Of a stretch of 64,000 nucleotides of DNA, positions 5,282-56,407 are shown in pieces. The notes below the pieces were generated by a model that saw only the letters and a list, made by a program, of their open reading frames with translations, had not been told where the DNA came from and made no database searches. Source of the DNA: an uncultured Vicinamibacterales bacterium (lineage in GTDB: Bacteria; Acidobacteriota; Vicinamibacteria; Vicinamibacterales; UBA8438); assembly GCA_958295905.1 (NCBI GenBank), contig OY282382.1, positions 4,384,910-4,448,909 of the forward strand, written 5' to 3'. The position numbers and the translations under genes were made by a program. Within the stretch, counting starts at the first letter, position 1. Each line of letters opens with the position of its first letter.

Positions 5282-5330
5282 GCCGTCTCGCCGAAACCGG
5301 TGCCGGCCCCGGTCCCGATCCCTTCCATTA

Positions 5331-5393
5331 TTTCCCGCGCATCAGGGGAAACAGGATCACGATTTCGCGCGCATCAGGGGAAACAGGATCACG
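5331..5393. repeat. Direct repeat of the lysS 3' end
   Basis: Two 31-bp copies at 5331-5361 and 5363-5393, offset 32 bp, differ at one base. The copy at 5363-5393 encodes the lysS tail VILFPLMRAK. The other copy begins at the stop codon and is out of frame. Without the duplication the gene would read VILFPLMRGK and stop at TAA, so the present stop codon was created by the duplication. Confidence 0.9.
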
Positions 5394-15483: not shown

Positions 15484-15486
15484 GGG

Positions 15487-15597
15487 GCCGCGGGCGCCGC
15501 CCGGATACGCCTGCGTCGAGAGACCCTCCCCCGAACTTTGATCCGGCGCGTCGGCGAAGGCCGCGGGCGCCGCCCGGATACGTCTGCGTCGAGAGGG
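15487..15597. repeat. Direct repeat after the beta-barrel gene
   Basis: GGCCGCGGGCGCCGCCCGG begins a near-identical segment of about 38 bp at 15487 and again about 15558, offset 71 bp, with one clear mismatch. The first copy starts four bases after the stop codon. The region 15484-16155 has no convincing gene; it holds this repeat, the 68-bp tandem array and unassigned G+C-rich DNA. Confidence 0.75.
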
Positions 15598-15680: not shown

Positions 15681-15912
15681 CCGCGGCGCCGCCCCCCTTG
15701 CTACCCGCAGGCTCAACAGCGGCGATGCGAGGTCGATGACTGCGTCGGCCGGCCGAGGCGCCGCCCCCTTGCTACCCGCTCACCAGCGGCGATGCGAGGT
15801 CGATGACCGCGTCGGCCAGCCGAGGCGCCCCCTTGCGACCCGCAGGCTCACCAGCGGCGATGCGAGGTCGATGACTGCGTCGGGCCAGCCGCGGCGCCGC
15901 CCCCTTCGCGAC
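15681..15912. repeat. Tandem array of about 68-bp units, 3.5 copies
   Basis: Units start near 15681, 15751, 15818 and 15883 (last one cut after about 30 bp). Each runs CCGAGGCGCCGCCCCCTTG, then CTACCCGCAGGCTCACCAG, then CGGCGATGCGAGGTCGATGA and CTGCGTCGG. Copies differ by a few bases and by small length changes. There is no spacer diversity, so it is not a CRISPR. No stable reading frame spans it; chance open frames exist on both strands. Confidence 0.85.
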
Positions 15913-17504: not shown

Positions 17505-17660
17505 GGGAGTCTGCGCGACCTTGCGGTCGCGTTGGAAGTTTCGCTGACGCGAAACTTCTACGGCGCAAGCGCCTGGCGCAACCCTGCGGGCGCGTTGGAA
17601 GTTCGCTGACGCGAAACTTCTACGGCGCAAGCGCCTGGCGCGACCCTGCGGGCAGACTCC
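17505..17660. repeat. Composite REP-like element with internal tandem copy
   Basis: GGGAGTCTGC at 17505-17514 and GCAGACTCC at 17652-17660 are inverted and bracket two tandem units (17528-17590 and 17591-17652, 63 and 62 bp). Each unit contains a hairpin; in the first it is perfect, GAAGTTTCGC and GCGAAACTTC around TGAC. Each unit then has CTTCTACGGCGCAAGC, which shares the TTCTACGGCGCA core of the palindromes at 16.2 and 31.8 kb. The element ends a few bases after the hemW stop codon. Confidence 0.85.
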
Positions 17661-29547: not shown

Positions 29548-31557
29548 ATGATACTGCCACTGCACACGGACCTGCGCCGCGCCATCGCATCGGCCCTGGG
29601 CACACTCTACGGCCTCGCGCCGGACGCGATGCCCCCGATCGTGATCGAGTACCCGCCGAACCGGCGGATGGGCGACCTCGCCGTCACCGTCGCCTTCGAC
29701 CTCGCCCGCACCCTCCGGAAAGCGCCCCGCCTGATCGCGGCGGAGATCGCCGCGGCGGCGACCGGCCCCGCCGGCCTCGGGCGTCTCGAGGCGACCGGGA
29801 CCGGTTATCTCAACCTGTTCCTCGATCGCCCCCGCTTCGCCCGTGCCCGCATCGGCGGGGACCCGCCGGCCGCCGCTGCCGGGGACGCGGCGAAGACCAT
29901 CGTCGAGCACACCGCCATCAACCCGAACAAGGCGGCCCACATCGGGCATCTGCGCAACGCCGCCCTCGGCGACACGCTGTGCCGGCTGCTGCGCTTCCGG
30001 GGGGCCGACGTTGAGGTGCAGAACTACATCGACGACACCGGCGTGCAGGTGGCCGACGTGGTGGTCGGGCTGCGGGAGCTCGAGAAGAAGGACGTCGACG
30101 ACGTGCGCCGGCTCGCGGAGGAACCCCGGTTCGACGACTACTGCTGGAACCTCTATGCGCGGGTGACGCGGTGGTACGAGGAGGACGACGCGCGGCTGTC
30201 GCACCGCCGGGACGCCCTGCACGACCTCGAGCGCGACGCGGACTCCACCGCGGCAATGGCCCGCGTGGTGACCGACAGCATCGTGCGCTGCCACCTGCGG
30301 ACGATGGCGCGGCTCGGGATCGAGTACGACCTGCTGAGCTGGGAGGGCGACATCCTGAGGCTGGCGTTCTGGGACCGCGCCTTCGAGATTCTCAAGGCCT
30401 CGGGCGCCGTCCGCCTCCAGGCCGACGGCCGGCTCGCCGGCTGCTGGGTGATGCCGATCGACGAGCCCGGCGAGGCCGAGGCGCCGTCGGACGCCGACGG
30501 CGGCGACCCCGACGCGGACGCCCGCCTCAAGGTCATCGTGCGGTCGAACGGCACCGTGACCTACGTCGGCAAGGACATCGCCTATCAGCTCTGGAAGTTC
30601 GGCCTGCTGGGACGAGACTTCCACTACCGGCGGTTCGACGCCCAGCCCTCGGGCCGCCCCCTCTGGACCACGTCGAGCGCCGCCGCCCCGGACGGCGGCG
30701 GCCCCACCGCCCCGTTCGGCCGCGCCGCCGCCGTCTACAACATCATCGACACCCGCCAGAGCTATCTGCAGCGGCTGCTGGTTCAGGCGCTCGTGGCGCT
30801 GGACCATCCGGCGGAGGCGGAGCGCTCCGTCCATTTCTCGTACGAGATGGTGGCGCTGTCCCGCAACACCGCCGCGGCTCTCGGCCACGCCGCCTCGGCC
30901 GACGACGGCAAGCCGTTCGTCGAGGTGTCCGGCCGCAAGGGGCTCGGGGTGAAGGCGGACGACCTGCTCGACCAAGTGACGGAACGGGCGCAGCAGGAGG
31001 TCGCGGCCCGACACCCCGACCTCCCCGCCGTCGAGCAGCGGCGCACCGCCGAGATCATCGCGGCCGCGGCCGTCCGCTACTTCATGATCAAGTTCTCGCG
31101 CGGCAAGGTCATCGCCTTCGACATCGACGAGGCCCTCAGCTTCGAGGGGGAGACCGGGCCGTACCTCCAGTACGCCACCGTCCGCGCCCGCAAGATCCTG
31201 CAGAAGTTGCGGGACCGGCACGGCCTCGAGACCGCGGACATCCTCGAGGGCTTGGCGGCCGCGCCGGACGCCCCTCTCGCGGGTCCCGCCGGCGACGAGC
31301 TCTGGGGCCTCGTCCTCGAGGCGGCGCGGCTGGACGAGATAGCCGATCAGGCGGTGCGGACGCTCGAGCTGTCGGTGCTCGCCAAGTACGCGTTCGCGCT
31401 CGCCCAGCGCTTCAACGGCTTCTACCACAGCAGCCCGGTGGTGGCGGAGCCCGACGAGGCGGTCCGGCGCTGGCGCGCAGCCGGGGTCGCCTGGTTCGAG
31501 GCGCAGATGACGAGGGCCCTCGCGCTGATGGGATGCGAAGCGCCGGACCGCATGTAG
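29548..31557 (+). CDS. argS: Arginyl-tRNA synthetase
   Basis: Class I synthetase, 669 residues. N-terminal Add1 domain (1-100), then NPNKAAHIGHLRNAALGD with the HIGH motif, catalytic domain, and DALR anticodon domain at the end (TLELSVLAKYAFALAQRFNGFYH). The KMSKS loop is replaced by SGRKGLGVKADDLLD, a variation usual for ArgRS. An acidic low-complexity insertion (residues about 310-325, APSDADGGDPDADA) and another near 380 are extra. The last ten codons are duplicated downstream. Confidence 0.95.
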   Translation: MILPLHTDLRRAIASALGTLYGLAPDAMPPIVIEYPPNRRMGDLAVTVAFDLARTLRKAPRLIAAEIAAAATGPAGLGRLEATGTGYLNLFLDRPRFARARIGGDPPAAAAGDAAKTIVEHTAINPNKAAHIGHLRNAALGDTLCRLLRFRGADVEVQNYIDDTGVQVADVVVGLRELEKKDVDDVRRLAEEPRFDDYCWNLYARVTRWYEEDDARLSHRRDALHDLERDADSTAAMARVVTDSIVRCHLRTMARLGIEYDLLSWEGDILRLAFWDRAFEILKASGAVRLQADGRLAGCWVMPIDEPGEAEAPSDADGGDPDADARLKVIVRSNGTVTYVGKDIAYQLWKFGLLGRDFHYRRFDAQPSGRPLWTTSSAAAPDGGGPTAPFGRAAAVYNIIDTRQSYLQRLLVQALVALDHPAEAERSVHFSYEMVALSRNTAAALGHAASADDGKPFVEVSGRKGLGVKADDLLDQVTERAQQEVAARHPDLPAVEQRRTAEIIAAAAVRYFMIKFSRGKVIAFDIDEALSFEGETGPYLQYATVRARKILQKLRDRHGLETADILEGLAAAPDAPLAGPAGDELWGLVLEAARLDEIADQAVRTLELSVLAKYAFALAQRFNGFYHSSPVVAEPDEAVRRWRAAGVAWFEAQMTRALALMGCEAPDRM

Positions 31558-31617
31558 GCCCTCGACGGCGTCATCGTGCGCGGACTGATGGGATGCGAGG
31601 TGCCGGACCGCCTGTAG
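31525..31617. repeat. Direct repeat of the argS 3' end
   Basis: The last 33 bases of argS (31525-31557, encoding LMGCEAPDRM and TAG) recur at 31585-31617 with three changes, encoding LMGCEVPDRL and TAG. The offset is 60 bases, so both copies are in the same frame; 27 unrelated bases lie between them. Confidence 0.9.
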
Positions 31618-39898: not shown

Positions 39899-41005
39899 TC
39901 AAACCGGCTTGATGCGGCCGATCTGGTCGCGCACCAGGCGCTCCGCCACCCTGGCGACCACTTCGGACACCAGCTCGCCGGTCACGTCGTCCGACAGGCG
40001 CTGGACGACCCGCTCGGCCACCCGCTCGATCAGGTCGTCCTCGCTGACCGGGGCGGCCTGGCGAGGCCAAGGATAGGCCGCACGCGCCCGATCGAGGTCG
40101 CCCTGCTCAGCCGCGAGGAGCGAGGCGAAGGCGTCGGCCAGCGAGGGCGGCGGCGGCGCCTCCACCGCGGCCACGGCCGGGACCGGCGGGGCCGAATCTC
40201 CGGCTTCCGCCGCCGGGGCCGGCGATTCCGCCGGTGCGGACGCCGCCGGGGCCGGGACCGGCGGGGCCGAATCTCCGGCTTCCGCCGCCGGGGCCGGCGA
40301 TTCCGCCGGTGCGGACGCCGCCGGGGCCGGGACCGGCGGGGCCGAATCTCCGGCTTCCGCCGCCGGGGCCGGCGATTCCGCCGGTGCGGGCGCCGCCGGG
40401 GCCGGGTCGGGTCCGGTTGCCCGATCGTCGCCGTCGCCGCCGGCCGCGCCGAGGGTCCCGTCCGCGACGGCCGGCGCTTCCGCCTCCCGCGGCCGCTCCG
40501 GTTCCGCGGGGGGGGGCGGAGACGCCGGCGCCGCGGCGCTCCGCCCGGTGTCTTCGCCAGCCCGGCCGGGGGCATCGCCGCGCGGCGCCGGCGCCGGCGG
40601 GCCCGCCGATGCCGGCGTCCCGGTCTCCGGAACCGCCGGCGCGCCGAGGAGCTCGCGGACCCGGGTGATCACCGCCTGCGGTTCGAACGGTTTCACCAGT
40701 ACCGCGTCACAGCCGACCTCGCGGGCCCGATCGCCGTCGACCGGATCGAAGGCCCCCGTCAGCAGCACCACCGGAATGTGGGACAGGGCGCTGTCGGCCT
40801 TGACGAAGGCCGAAACGGCGTAACCGTCCTTCTCCGGCATGTTGGTGTCGGCCAGCACGATGTCCGGCGGGTCGGCGGCAATGCGCTCAATCGCCTCGCG
40901 CCCGTTACCGACCGCCGCCACCCGGACGTCCTCCTCAGCGAAGGTCATCTCAATGACGCGTTGAATCGTGGCGCTGTCGTCGGCAAGCAGAAGCGTATGT
41001 GGCAT
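39899..41005 (-). CDS. Response-regulator receiver protein with Ala/Pro repeats
   Basis: 368 residues. Receiver domain 1-120: LLLADDSATIQRVIEMTF with the acidic pair, phospho-Asp in DIVLADTNMPEKDGY, LLTGAFDPVD and the Lys in AVLVKPFEPQAV. Then an Ala/Pro/Glu-rich region with three 25-residue tandem repeats (APAESPAPAAEAGDSAPPVP core). A C-terminal helical domain (SEDDLIERVAERVVQRLSDD ... LVRDQIGRIKPV) may mediate oligomerisation. No kinase is adjacent. The layout resembles gliding/polarity regulators in some Gram-negatives, but the role is unknown. Confidence 0.85.
   Translation of the reverse strand: MPHTLLLADDSATIQRVIEMTFAEEDVRVAAVGNGREAIERIAADPPDIVLADTNMPEKDGYAVSAFVKADSALSHIPVVLLTGAFDPVDGDRAREVGCDAVLVKPFEPQAVITRVRELLGAPAVPETGTPASAGPPAPAPRGDAPGRAGEDTGRSAAAPASPPPPAEPERPREAEAPAVADGTLGAAGGDGDDRATGPDPAPAAPAPAESPAPAAEAGDSAPPVPAPAASAPAESPAPAAEAGDSAPPVPAPAASAPAESPAPAAEAGDSAPPVPAVAAVEAPPPPSLADAFASLLAAEQGDLDRARAAYPWPRQAAPVSEDDLIERVAERVVQRLSDDVTGELVSEVVARVAERLVRDQIGRIKPV
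40180..40404. repeat. Three in-frame 75-bp tandem repeats
   Basis: Three nearly identical 75-bp units encode the 25-residue linker repeats of the receiver protein. The units share long identical DNA stretches such as GGCCGAATCTCCGGCTTCCG, with only single-base changes, so they arose recently or are kept uniform by recombination. Copy number probably varies between strains. Confidence 0.9.
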
Positions 41006-44990: not shown

Positions 44991-45135
44991 CGGCAGTTCC
45001 CCGGCGCGAAACGTCTGCGCGGTGGCCGCACGACCTGCGGTTTCGCCGGCAGTCCCCGGCGTGGACTTCTGCGCGGTGGCCGCACGACCTGCGGCCGCGC
45101 CGGCAATTCCCGCGTGAACTTCTGCGGCGCAAGCC
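44991..45135. repeat. Tandem repeat, 2.7 copies of about 55 bp
   Basis: Units begin CGGCAGTTCC (44991), CGGCAGTCCC (45047) and CGGCAATTCC (45101). Each continues to a CTTCTGCGC-type segment and GGTGGCCGCACGACCTGCGG. The last ends CTTCTGCGGCGCAAGC, one base from the CTTCTACGGCGCAAGC of the element at 17.5 kb, which ties this array to the REP-like family. It lies between convergent genes; nothing else is visible in 44972-45232. Confidence 0.8.
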
Positions 45136-54884: not shown

Positions 54885-55484
54885 ATGACGTTCACGGGCG
54901 CCGTCGGCGCCGCCTGCATGTTCCCGCTCCGCGCCATCATTCGGGCGTGCGTCGCGTTACGGATTCATCCCAACGCGCTCACCCTGATCGGTGTGGTGAT
55001 CAACTTCATCGCGGCCTGGTTCTTCGCGCAGGGGTCCTTCATCACCGCCGGCTTCATCATGCTGGTCGCCAACATCTTCGACTTCATCGACGGCAAGGTG
55101 GCCGAGGCGACGAACCTGGCGTCACGGTTCGGCGGGTTCTGGGACTCGGTCATGGACCGGTTCTCCGATCTGTCGCTGTTCATCGGCGTCATCTATCTGT
55201 ACGCGCAGCTCGGGCGCACCGACTACGTCATGATCGCCGCTTTCGCGATGATGTTCTCGGTGATGACGAGCTATACGCGGGCCCGGGCCGAGTCCATGAT
55301 CGACAAGTGCAAGGTCGGGTTCATGGAGCGTCCCGAACGGATCGTGCTCGTGATGATCGGGGCGTTCACGAACCGGATGGGCGCCGTGCTCTGGGTCATC
55401 CTGGTGTTGTCGATCGTCACCGTGCTCGACCGGATCTACTTCACCTGGCGGGCCCTCGAGACCCAGGAAGCGGGGGCACGGTAA
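54885..55484 (+). CDS. CDP-alcohol phosphatidyltransferase family protein
   Basis: 199-residue membrane enzyme that swaps CMP for an alcohol in phospholipid synthesis. ATG 54885 (MTFTGAVGAACMFPLRA). The motif D-x2-DG-x2-AR-x8-G-x3-D-x3-D appears as DFIDGKVAEATNLASRFG then GFWDSVMD; the Arg is replaced by Glu, all Asp are kept. Five or six helices. Substrate (glycerol-phosphate, inositol-phosphate or other) not determinable. Its 3' end is duplicated downstream. Confidence 0.88.
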   Translation: MTFTGAVGAACMFPLRAIIRACVALRIHPNALTLIGVVINFIAAWFFAQGSFITAGFIMLVANIFDFIDGKVAEATNLASRFGGFWDSVMDRFSDLSLFIGVIYLYAQLGRTDYVMIAAFAMMFSVMTSYTRARAESMIDKCKVGFMERPERIVLVMIGAFTNRMGAVLWVILVLSIVTVLDRIYFTWRALETQEAGAR

Positions 55485-55555
55485 CGATGCGCCTGCGCGC
55501 GCCGCTCGGCGTCCTCGACCTCGAGACCCAGGAAGCGGGGGCACGGTAACGATGC
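55455..55555. repeat. Direct repeat of the phosphatidyltransferase 3' end
   Basis: A 36-bp segment at 55455-55490 (encoding LETQEAGAR, the stop TAA, then CGATGC) recurs without change at 55520-55555, offset 65. Between the copies lie 29 bases. The second copy closes a 20-codon frame (ATG 55487, MRLRAPLGVLDLETQEAGAR) and its CGATGC provides the ATG of the next gene at 55552. Confidence 0.92.
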
Positions 55556-55749
55556 AGCGCCTCCTGACGTTGCCGGCGCGGGCCGTCTGGCACGCCCTGT
55601 TCTGGACGTTCGACCGGGCCACGTGGCAGTACGACCTGATGGTGCTCGCCATACTCGCGTTCGTCTGGCTCACCCCGCCGGAGTGGATCGGCGATCCGAC
55701 GGCCACCGGCCCCGGACTCATCGGCATCCTCCGCGATCTGTTCCGGTAG
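55552..55749 (+). CDS. Small membrane protein, 65 residues
   Basis: MQRLLTLPARAVWHALFWTF, then a membrane helix YDLMVLAILAFVWLTPPEW and a short tail ending GLIGILRDLFR. Start ATG 55552 sits in the second copy of the upstream repeat. No family recognised. Co-transcribed with the phosphatidyltransferase by position; may be an accessory to it, which is inference. Confidence 0.65.
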   Translation: MQRLLTLPARAVWHALFWTFDRATWQYDLMVLAILAFVWLTPPEWIGDPTATGPGLIGILRDLFR

Positions 55750-55858
55750 CCTCACACCACTTCCCGCCCGCCGGAACCGAGATCGAGCCGCGGCGGCCAT
55801 CATGCGCGGGGCCGCCGACGCCTCACACCACTTCCCGCTCGTCGGAACCGAGATCGAG
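55750..55858. repeat. Direct repeat of the 3' end of the next gene
   Basis: 38-bp copies at 55750-55787 and 55821-55858, offset 71, with two mismatches. The right copy encodes the last codons and TGA of the minus-strand membrane gene; the left copy is downstream and untranslated. The first base of the left copy adjoins the stop of the convergent 65-residue gene. Confidence 0.9.
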
Positions 55859-56407
55859 TCCCTTTCCCGCGAAGTGGATGTCGTGGGCGGCGATCTTGTC
55901 GCGCAACAGACGCCGCACCTCGCCGTAGTGCTCCCGCGGCACGTCGAGATGCCGCACGAGGTTGCGCACGCGGTCGATGAGCACCAGCCTCAGATCGGAG
56001 CCTCCCTGCCACGACAGGCCGCCGATCCGCCGGTACGGCACGAGCCCCTTGTCGGACCAGACGCCCGCATCGTAGAACCCGTGCCCAATGCGCAGGCTGA
56101 GGGGAAAGGCGTAGGCGTAGTAGATGAACATCATCCCCTCGCCGAACGCGTCGGCCAGCGGACGATCCCGGACGACGACCTTCGTGAACACGAGAGCGCC
56201 GAACAGGACCCCGAACCCCAGCGACACCCCGTAGGCGGACGGGCGCCCGCCCGGCCACGTCAGCACCGCCGTCGGCCGGAGACGGCGGAACCGCAGAAAC
56301 CGCCCCAGCAACCGGAGATTGGCCACCAGGAAGCCCGCCCCGAGGAGCCACAGCGCGGCCGGCACGACCGACTGGGCGAAACTGGAGAACAGCTCCCCGA
56401 CAGCCAC
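55823..56407 (-). CDS. Membrane protein of unknown function
   Basis: 194 residues. Three membrane segments (SVVPAALWLLGAGFLVANL; YGVSLGFGVLFGALVFTKVV; a shorter one at GMMFIYYAYAFPLSL) followed by a cytosolic domain with GHGFYDAGVWSDKGLVPYRR, IGGLSWQGGSDLRLVLIDRV and VPREHYGEVRRLLRDKI. The second part resembles PH-like domains that end small bacterial membrane proteins, but no family is assigned. It follows efp by 25 bases. Confidence 0.7.
   Translation of the reverse strand: MAVGELFSSFAQSVVPAALWLLGAGFLVANLRLLGRFLRFRRLRPTAVLTWPGGRPSAYGVSLGFGVLFGALVFTKVVVRDRPLADAFGEGMMFIYYAYAFPLSLRIGHGFYDAGVWSDKGLVPYRRIGGLSWQGGSDLRLVLIDRVRNLVRHLDVPREHYGEVRRLLRDKIAAHDIHFAGKGLDLGSDEREVV

Follow-up and report, generated by a model that had tools for sequence, protein, structure and literature searches.

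What gave two neighbouring genes a second copy of their own 3' ends? The question is raised by a 64,000-nt stretch (the window) of the 6.3-Mb genome of a member of the Vicinamibacteria (Acidobacteriota), in which a CDP-alcohol phosphatidyltransferase gene and a membrane protein gene, on either side of a 65-aa membrane-type ORF, each end in a sequence that recurs a short distance away. The duplicated gene ends were very probably left by the integration of CRISPR spacers at off-target (non-canonical) sites. Positions given below are those of the window unless they are marked as genome positions.

Duplicated gene ends in the window

The two duplications are real and were measured as 37-bp copies with a 28-bp spacer at the phosphatidyltransferase gene and 39-bp copies with a 32-bp spacer at the membrane protein gene (Table 1). 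The phosphatidyltransferase copies match at 37/37 positions with a period of 65 bp, and the first of them contains the last bases of the gene and its TAA, followed by the ATG that was formerly the start of the next gene. The spacer of this unit is shorter than the usual range of array spacers (34–43 bp). In the membrane-gene unit the copies match at 37/39 positions (two mismatches), and the period of 71 bp is within the genome-wide class described in the next section. The convergent genes at 55749 were originally 2 bp apart, so that any 36-bp target there must include gene ends. A third unit, which begins 2 bp past a stop codon, has the textbook geometry of the class with a period of 73 bp.

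Table 1. Positions in the window of the genes, target copies and spacers discussed in the text
Feature	Position	Strand	Remarks
CDP-alcohol phosphatidyltransferase gene (PF01066)	54885..55484	+	Family search agrees
65-aa membrane-type ORF	55552..55749	+	Conserved in relatives
Membrane protein gene	55823..56407	-	
Phosphatidyltransferase unit, target copy 1 (37 bp)	55454..55490		Identical to 55519-55555
Phosphatidyltransferase unit, inserted spacer (28 bp)	55491..55518		
Phosphatidyltransferase unit, target copy 2	55519..55555		Provides upstream region and ATG of the 65-aa gene at 55552
Membrane-gene unit, target copy 1 (39 bp)	55749..55787		Starts within the stop codon of the 65-aa gene
Membrane-gene unit, inserted spacer (32 bp)	55788..55819		
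Membrane-gene unit, target copy 2	55820..55858		Intact 3' end of the minus-strand gene 55823-56407
Third unit	15486..15595		Target 15486-15522 (37 bp), spacer 15523-15558 (36 bp), copy 15559-15595
Probable argS 3'-end unit	31525..31617		Copies 31525-31557 and 31585-31617, spacer 27 bp
lysS 3' end	5330..5393		Copies 5330-5361 and 5362-5393, adjacent, without spacer

The sequence-only reading had seen the same thing at argS and lysS, two gene identities that are supported by NCBIfam. For argS the claim stands, less firmly: the 33-bp copies match at 30/33 positions (three mismatches), and the unit, with a period of 60 bp, is below the size of the class. The lysS repeat was rejected as a member because its copies (31/32 match) form a 32-bp tandem duplication with no spacer, which is an ordinary tandem duplication. 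The membrane-gene unit (spacer 32 bp, period 71 bp) and the third unit (36 and 73 bp) are members of the class. The phosphatidyltransferase unit (28 and 65 bp) probably belongs to it as well, and the balance tips slightly towards including the argS unit (27 and 60 bp); in these two the repeat length fits, and the short spacers call for a prespacer that was short to begin with or for a deletion afterwards. Further local repeats of different geometry, at 40166-40411, 15693-15883, 17540-17653 and 45011-45112, comprise a 75-bp coding tandem repeat, a three-copy 67-bp repeat and palindromic 62-bp and 54-bp intergenic repeats.

Repeat-spacer-repeat units across the genome

Genes were called with a simple codon model in a 1.61-Mb sample of the genome, arrays excluded, and all direct repeats at a distance of 12–400 bp were listed. 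The spaced repeats form one sharp peak at a period of 71–76 bp with a repeat-length mode of 36–37 bp. As had been suspected from the window, such repeats far exceed chance: among repeats of 28–45 bp in the 1.61 Mb, 68 have a period of 69–79 bp, as compared with 2 at 45–58 bp and 9 at 80–130 bp. After one locally amplified cluster and extreme lengths were dropped, 63 units were kept, which have locus-specific repeats, targets of 31–41 bp and a period of 73.3 ± 1.7 bp (n = 63); extrapolation to the whole genome gives an estimate of about 250 units. The target copies are 100% identical in 23 units and as little as 84% identical in others, so that the process has been long-running and may still be running. 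Assembly error as the source of the second copies was rejected, since the spacers are distinct, empty copies occur elsewhere and similar units are found in independent MAGs.

The units are unevenly distributed, with 75/Mb in the 2.0–2.28 Mb block of the genome and about 20/Mb at 1.0–1.4 and 4.16–4.6 Mb; for the high density at genome 2000001-2280000, the replication terminus and a larger amount of intergenic DNA are candidate causes. They are enriched near CRISPR loci (9 observed as compared with 3.3 expected, p 0.006). Four consecutive ectopic units lie at genome 5237062-5237768, no more than 1 kb from the distal end of one of the CRISPR arrays (C1, below). At genome 19814 (L032) there is a nested unit with identical outer 36-bp repeats 147 bp (two periods) apart and a diverged inner pair, which suggests two successive integrations.

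A position always at the 3' end of a gene, which the sequence-only reading had proposed, is not a property of the class, because several units (15486/15559 is one) either lie clear of any stop codon or just touch one, and against a placement null no 3'-end bias is left. The 63 units comprise 35 that are intergenic, 9 over a stop, 6 over a start and 13 inside called genes, and random placement would give about 15% intergenic, 5% over a stop, 5% over a start and 73% inside genes. Genes are avoided, and stops are not preferred over starts, the two kinds of gene end being covered about equally. An insertion inside a gene would usually break it, and insertions between genes would survive. Where the target spans a gene boundary, its duplication keeps one whole copy on the side of the gene and so preserves that boundary. 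Purifying selection would explain the position bias, with the 3'-end pattern as a by-product.

The inserts bear on two other explanations. Insertion and target duplication exactly as seen would also be given by a very small integrative or transposable element that targets the 3' ends of genes and makes a 36-bp target-site duplication or att repeat, and an att-type element that rebuilds the gene end had been suggested for the window. The part of this suggestion that survives is an integration in which the target becomes duplicated and a tiny insert remains; the aim at gene 3' ends does not, with only 9 stops against 6 starts covered among the 63 units. Comparison of the spacers showed the 63 inserts to be mutually unrelated, with none of the shared sequence or terminal repeats of a transposon or MITE, and therefore reveals no defined element. 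We know of no transposase that makes 36-bp target duplications around inserts of about 36 bp, and we consider such an element very unlikely.

Short tandem duplication by slippage or template switching, followed by divergence of the middle, is a process for which the genome offers precedents in its plain tandem duplications (lysS and many overlapping repeats). However, divergence does not give units that are half identical and half unrelated, and 23 units have 100% identical repeats around a wholly unrelated spacer. The SD of the period is only 1.7 bp, empty sites show clean insertion, and the spacers are not copies of their neighbourhood. Among the 22 youngest spacers, 20 have no full second copy anywhere in the whole genome. 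This origin is highly improbable.

For spacers acquired by off-target integration, lack of mutual relationship and absence, for the most part, from the rest of the genome are as expected for captured DNA. Self matches were found for 2 of the 22 youngest spacers (34/35 at genome 4306849 and 36/36 at 1308338), as compared with 0 of 388 array spacers matching the sampled genome (Fisher p 0.02), a contrast that would fit the removal of self spacers by selection from functional arrays and their toleration at silent sites. No viral source of the spacers was found in a phage collection or in exact scans of IMG/VR; an untraced viral source is usual for spacers of uncultured bacteria. The targets have a weak preference for G at the edge (first base, 23/46, p 0.04), a motif search across them found no stronger motif, and their hairpin content is not above that of an intergenic control (4.35 as compared with 4.19). 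The absence of any spacer traced to a virus, the weak G preference at the edge and the variation in target length from 31 to 41 bp count against off-target integration. So do the phosphatidyltransferase and argS spacers, both of them below the range of the arrays, and the uneven relation of units to cas1 among relatives (below).

Empty sites, CRISPR arrays and the proposed reaction

The 1.61 Mb sampled contains about 80 copies of a dispersed intergenic repeat family of about 150 bp (consensus ...CACGCGGCGCCGGCCGGTCGGCAAGACGGTGGCGACCCCTCGAATCGGGGGCGAGCCGTCACGCGCAGTCAGCGTGGGATGCTCCTG). At least 6 of the 63 units were found in this family, and those at genome 36197 and 4006680 sit within it. The 76–77 other copies have a single target with no spacer and no second repeat and are thus empty sites. 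The empty copies that were aligned with the event show a single clean gap, which spans the spacer and one repeat, and no loss of target. Because the empty copies have one target, a single target has been turned into target-spacer-target. The empty sites were taken from this family because the intergenic DNA of G001 and G002, two relatives of the same genus, is too diverged for most units. One 36-bp target in the family has been used three times independently, at genome 312766, 1150990 and 2111858, and the spacers at these sites are unrelated; another target has been used twice. A target site labelled site A has the sequence GGCGAGCCGTCACGCGCAGTCAGCGTGGGATGCTCC. The same target with a different insert is the behaviour of a spacer integrase and is unlike that of a mobile element or slippage.

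Close relatives were compared at the two loci that raised the question, and the second copies seen here are absent from both loci in G001 and G002. At the membrane-gene locus, only the copy at 55820-55858 has a counterpart in these genomes. An older duplication, of period 72, at the 3' end of the phosphatidyltransferase gene is shared by G001 and G002, whose examined loci contain three more units of the class. The phosphatidyltransferase and the 65-aa ORF are fused in frame in several genera (L006-L008, L010-L013) and are separate here, with the insertion between them (54885-55749). No cas1 was found in the 97%-complete assembly of G002, though units are present. In relatives without a detected cas1, mostly of other genera so that the comparison is confounded by phylogeny, there were 0 units in 869 kb as compared with 31 expected at the density of this genome. 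The cas1-bearing G018 and G010 have one unit each in the sampled sequence, and the cas1-bearing G025, which has an I-G-like array with a 36-bp repeat, has no unit outside the array in 200 kb. The presence of cas1 may be needed for units, a relation confounded by phylogeny, and is not sufficient for them (none in G025, one in G018).

The genome has three cas1 genes, each adjoining a large CRISPR array. Array C1 (88 repeats of 36 bp) is accompanied by a cas4g/cas1g fusion, cas2, csb1 and csb2 and is of type I-G; C2 (199 repeats of 37 bp) has csb1, csb2 and a Cas1c/Cas1g-like cas1 alongside, together with cas4-like and cas2-like ORFs identified by eye; and C3 (106 repeats of 28 bp) is I-D-like (csc2). 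C2 is very long (genome 3982379-3997008), and the three arrays hold about 390 spacers. Their periods are 73.8 ± 1.9 bp (C1), 73.7 ± 1.7 bp (C2) and 65.5 ± 2.0 bp (C3). In KS comparisons, the period of the units is not separated from that of C1 (p 0.18) or C2 (p 0.48), and C3 is rejected (p 3e-45). Adaptation genes of matching geometry are therefore present in the genome that carries the units.

The equality of geometry with C1 and C2 would also be found if the units were fragments of real CRISPR arrays that had decayed or moved. The similarity of the unit repeats to the CRISPR repeats, however, does not exceed that of random genomic sequence, which argues against array fragments or decayed arrays; no repeat sequence is common to the units, and their repeats match host gene ends and dispersed repeats. 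We regard an array origin as extremely improbable. A contribution of the I-D-like system, with its 28-bp repeat and period of 65.5 bp, to the short-period units, including that of the phosphatidyltransferase (65 bp), is unlikely. There is a small excess at 59–68 bp, near the period of C3 (8 units, repeats of 28–45 bp), but most of these units have 32–39-bp repeats and short spacers and not 28-bp repeats with 37-bp spacers.

In off-target integration, the reaction would be catalysed by Cas1-Cas2, most likely by the integrase from either C1 or C2, whose cas loci both carry type I-G effector genes and separate sets of cas4, cas1 and cas2. The integrase, carrying a captured DNA fragment of about 36 nt, would attack both strands of an ordinary chromosomal site, about 36 bp apart, and not the leader-end CRISPR repeat. 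Gap filling would then make two target copies from one, flanking the new spacer.

Known systems and significance

In the E. coli work of Nivala and colleagues, off-target integration reportedly followed overexpression of Cas1-Cas2, at sites resembling the CRISPR locus, and a few putative natural instances are said to have been noted. Off-target integration and neo-CRISPR loci are credited to that work (Nivala, Shipman and Church 2018, Nat Microbiol 3:310) in the citing passages of PMC11788318 and PMC9456107. The units resemble that system in having one captured fragment outside an array, flanked by two target copies of CRISPR-repeat size, and differ from it in that about 250 natural events are estimated in one uncultured bacterium, with targets unlike the CRISPR repeat and the geometry of arrays that have I-G effector genes, and that sites in a dispersed family were used more than once. 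They share Cas1-type integrase chemistry, if the proposed reaction is correct, and target duplication with casposons and other Cas1-family transposition. Casposon target duplications are about 14–15 bp long and surround a large element, unlike the 36-bp duplications around an insert of about 36 bp seen here.

Canonical Cas4/1-Cas2 acquisition of type I-G (PMC10504553) has the same repeat and spacer lengths, and cas4g/cas1g, cas2 and arrays are in the same genome; here, however, the target is ordinary chromosome, there is usually one spacer per site and there is no leader. The same paper mentions smears in type I-G Cas4/1 reactions in vitro that suggest nonspecific integration. The two-repeat 'False-CRISPR' elements (PMC5294841), which were either put down to tandem or simple repeats or given no explanation, have a similar look of a tiny CRISPR whose repeats are unrelated and which lacks cas genes nearby, but for the units described here an origin by insertion is shown by the empty sites. 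The prevailing view has off-target integration as a rare event against which safeguards exist, with disintegration discussed as one form of protection (PMC8390005). No report of off-target integration at such a natural scale was found in the literature. What is new here is the scale, the natural occurrence in an uncultured acidobacterium, the targets unlike the CRISPR repeat and the repeated use of targets.

The genome is a ready-made record of target choice by the integrase, prespacer size and tolerance, and a test case for the origin of new CRISPR loci. Target and spacer geometry equal to that of a genome's own arrays provides a simple search signature for other genomes, and events of this kind may account for some of the single-spacer CRISPR predictions classed as 'questionable'. 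The units are also a little-noticed source of intergenic DNA and duplicated gene ends. We suggest, tentatively and as a less probable extension, that in this lineage one Cas1-Cas2 complex has lost its dependence on the leader and integrates DNA throughout the genome, steadily supplying new intergenic DNA and proto-CRISPR loci, and that this is possibly tolerated or even useful. The two arrays of matching geometry hold about 285 spacers, and on this reading an estimated 250 or so went astray.
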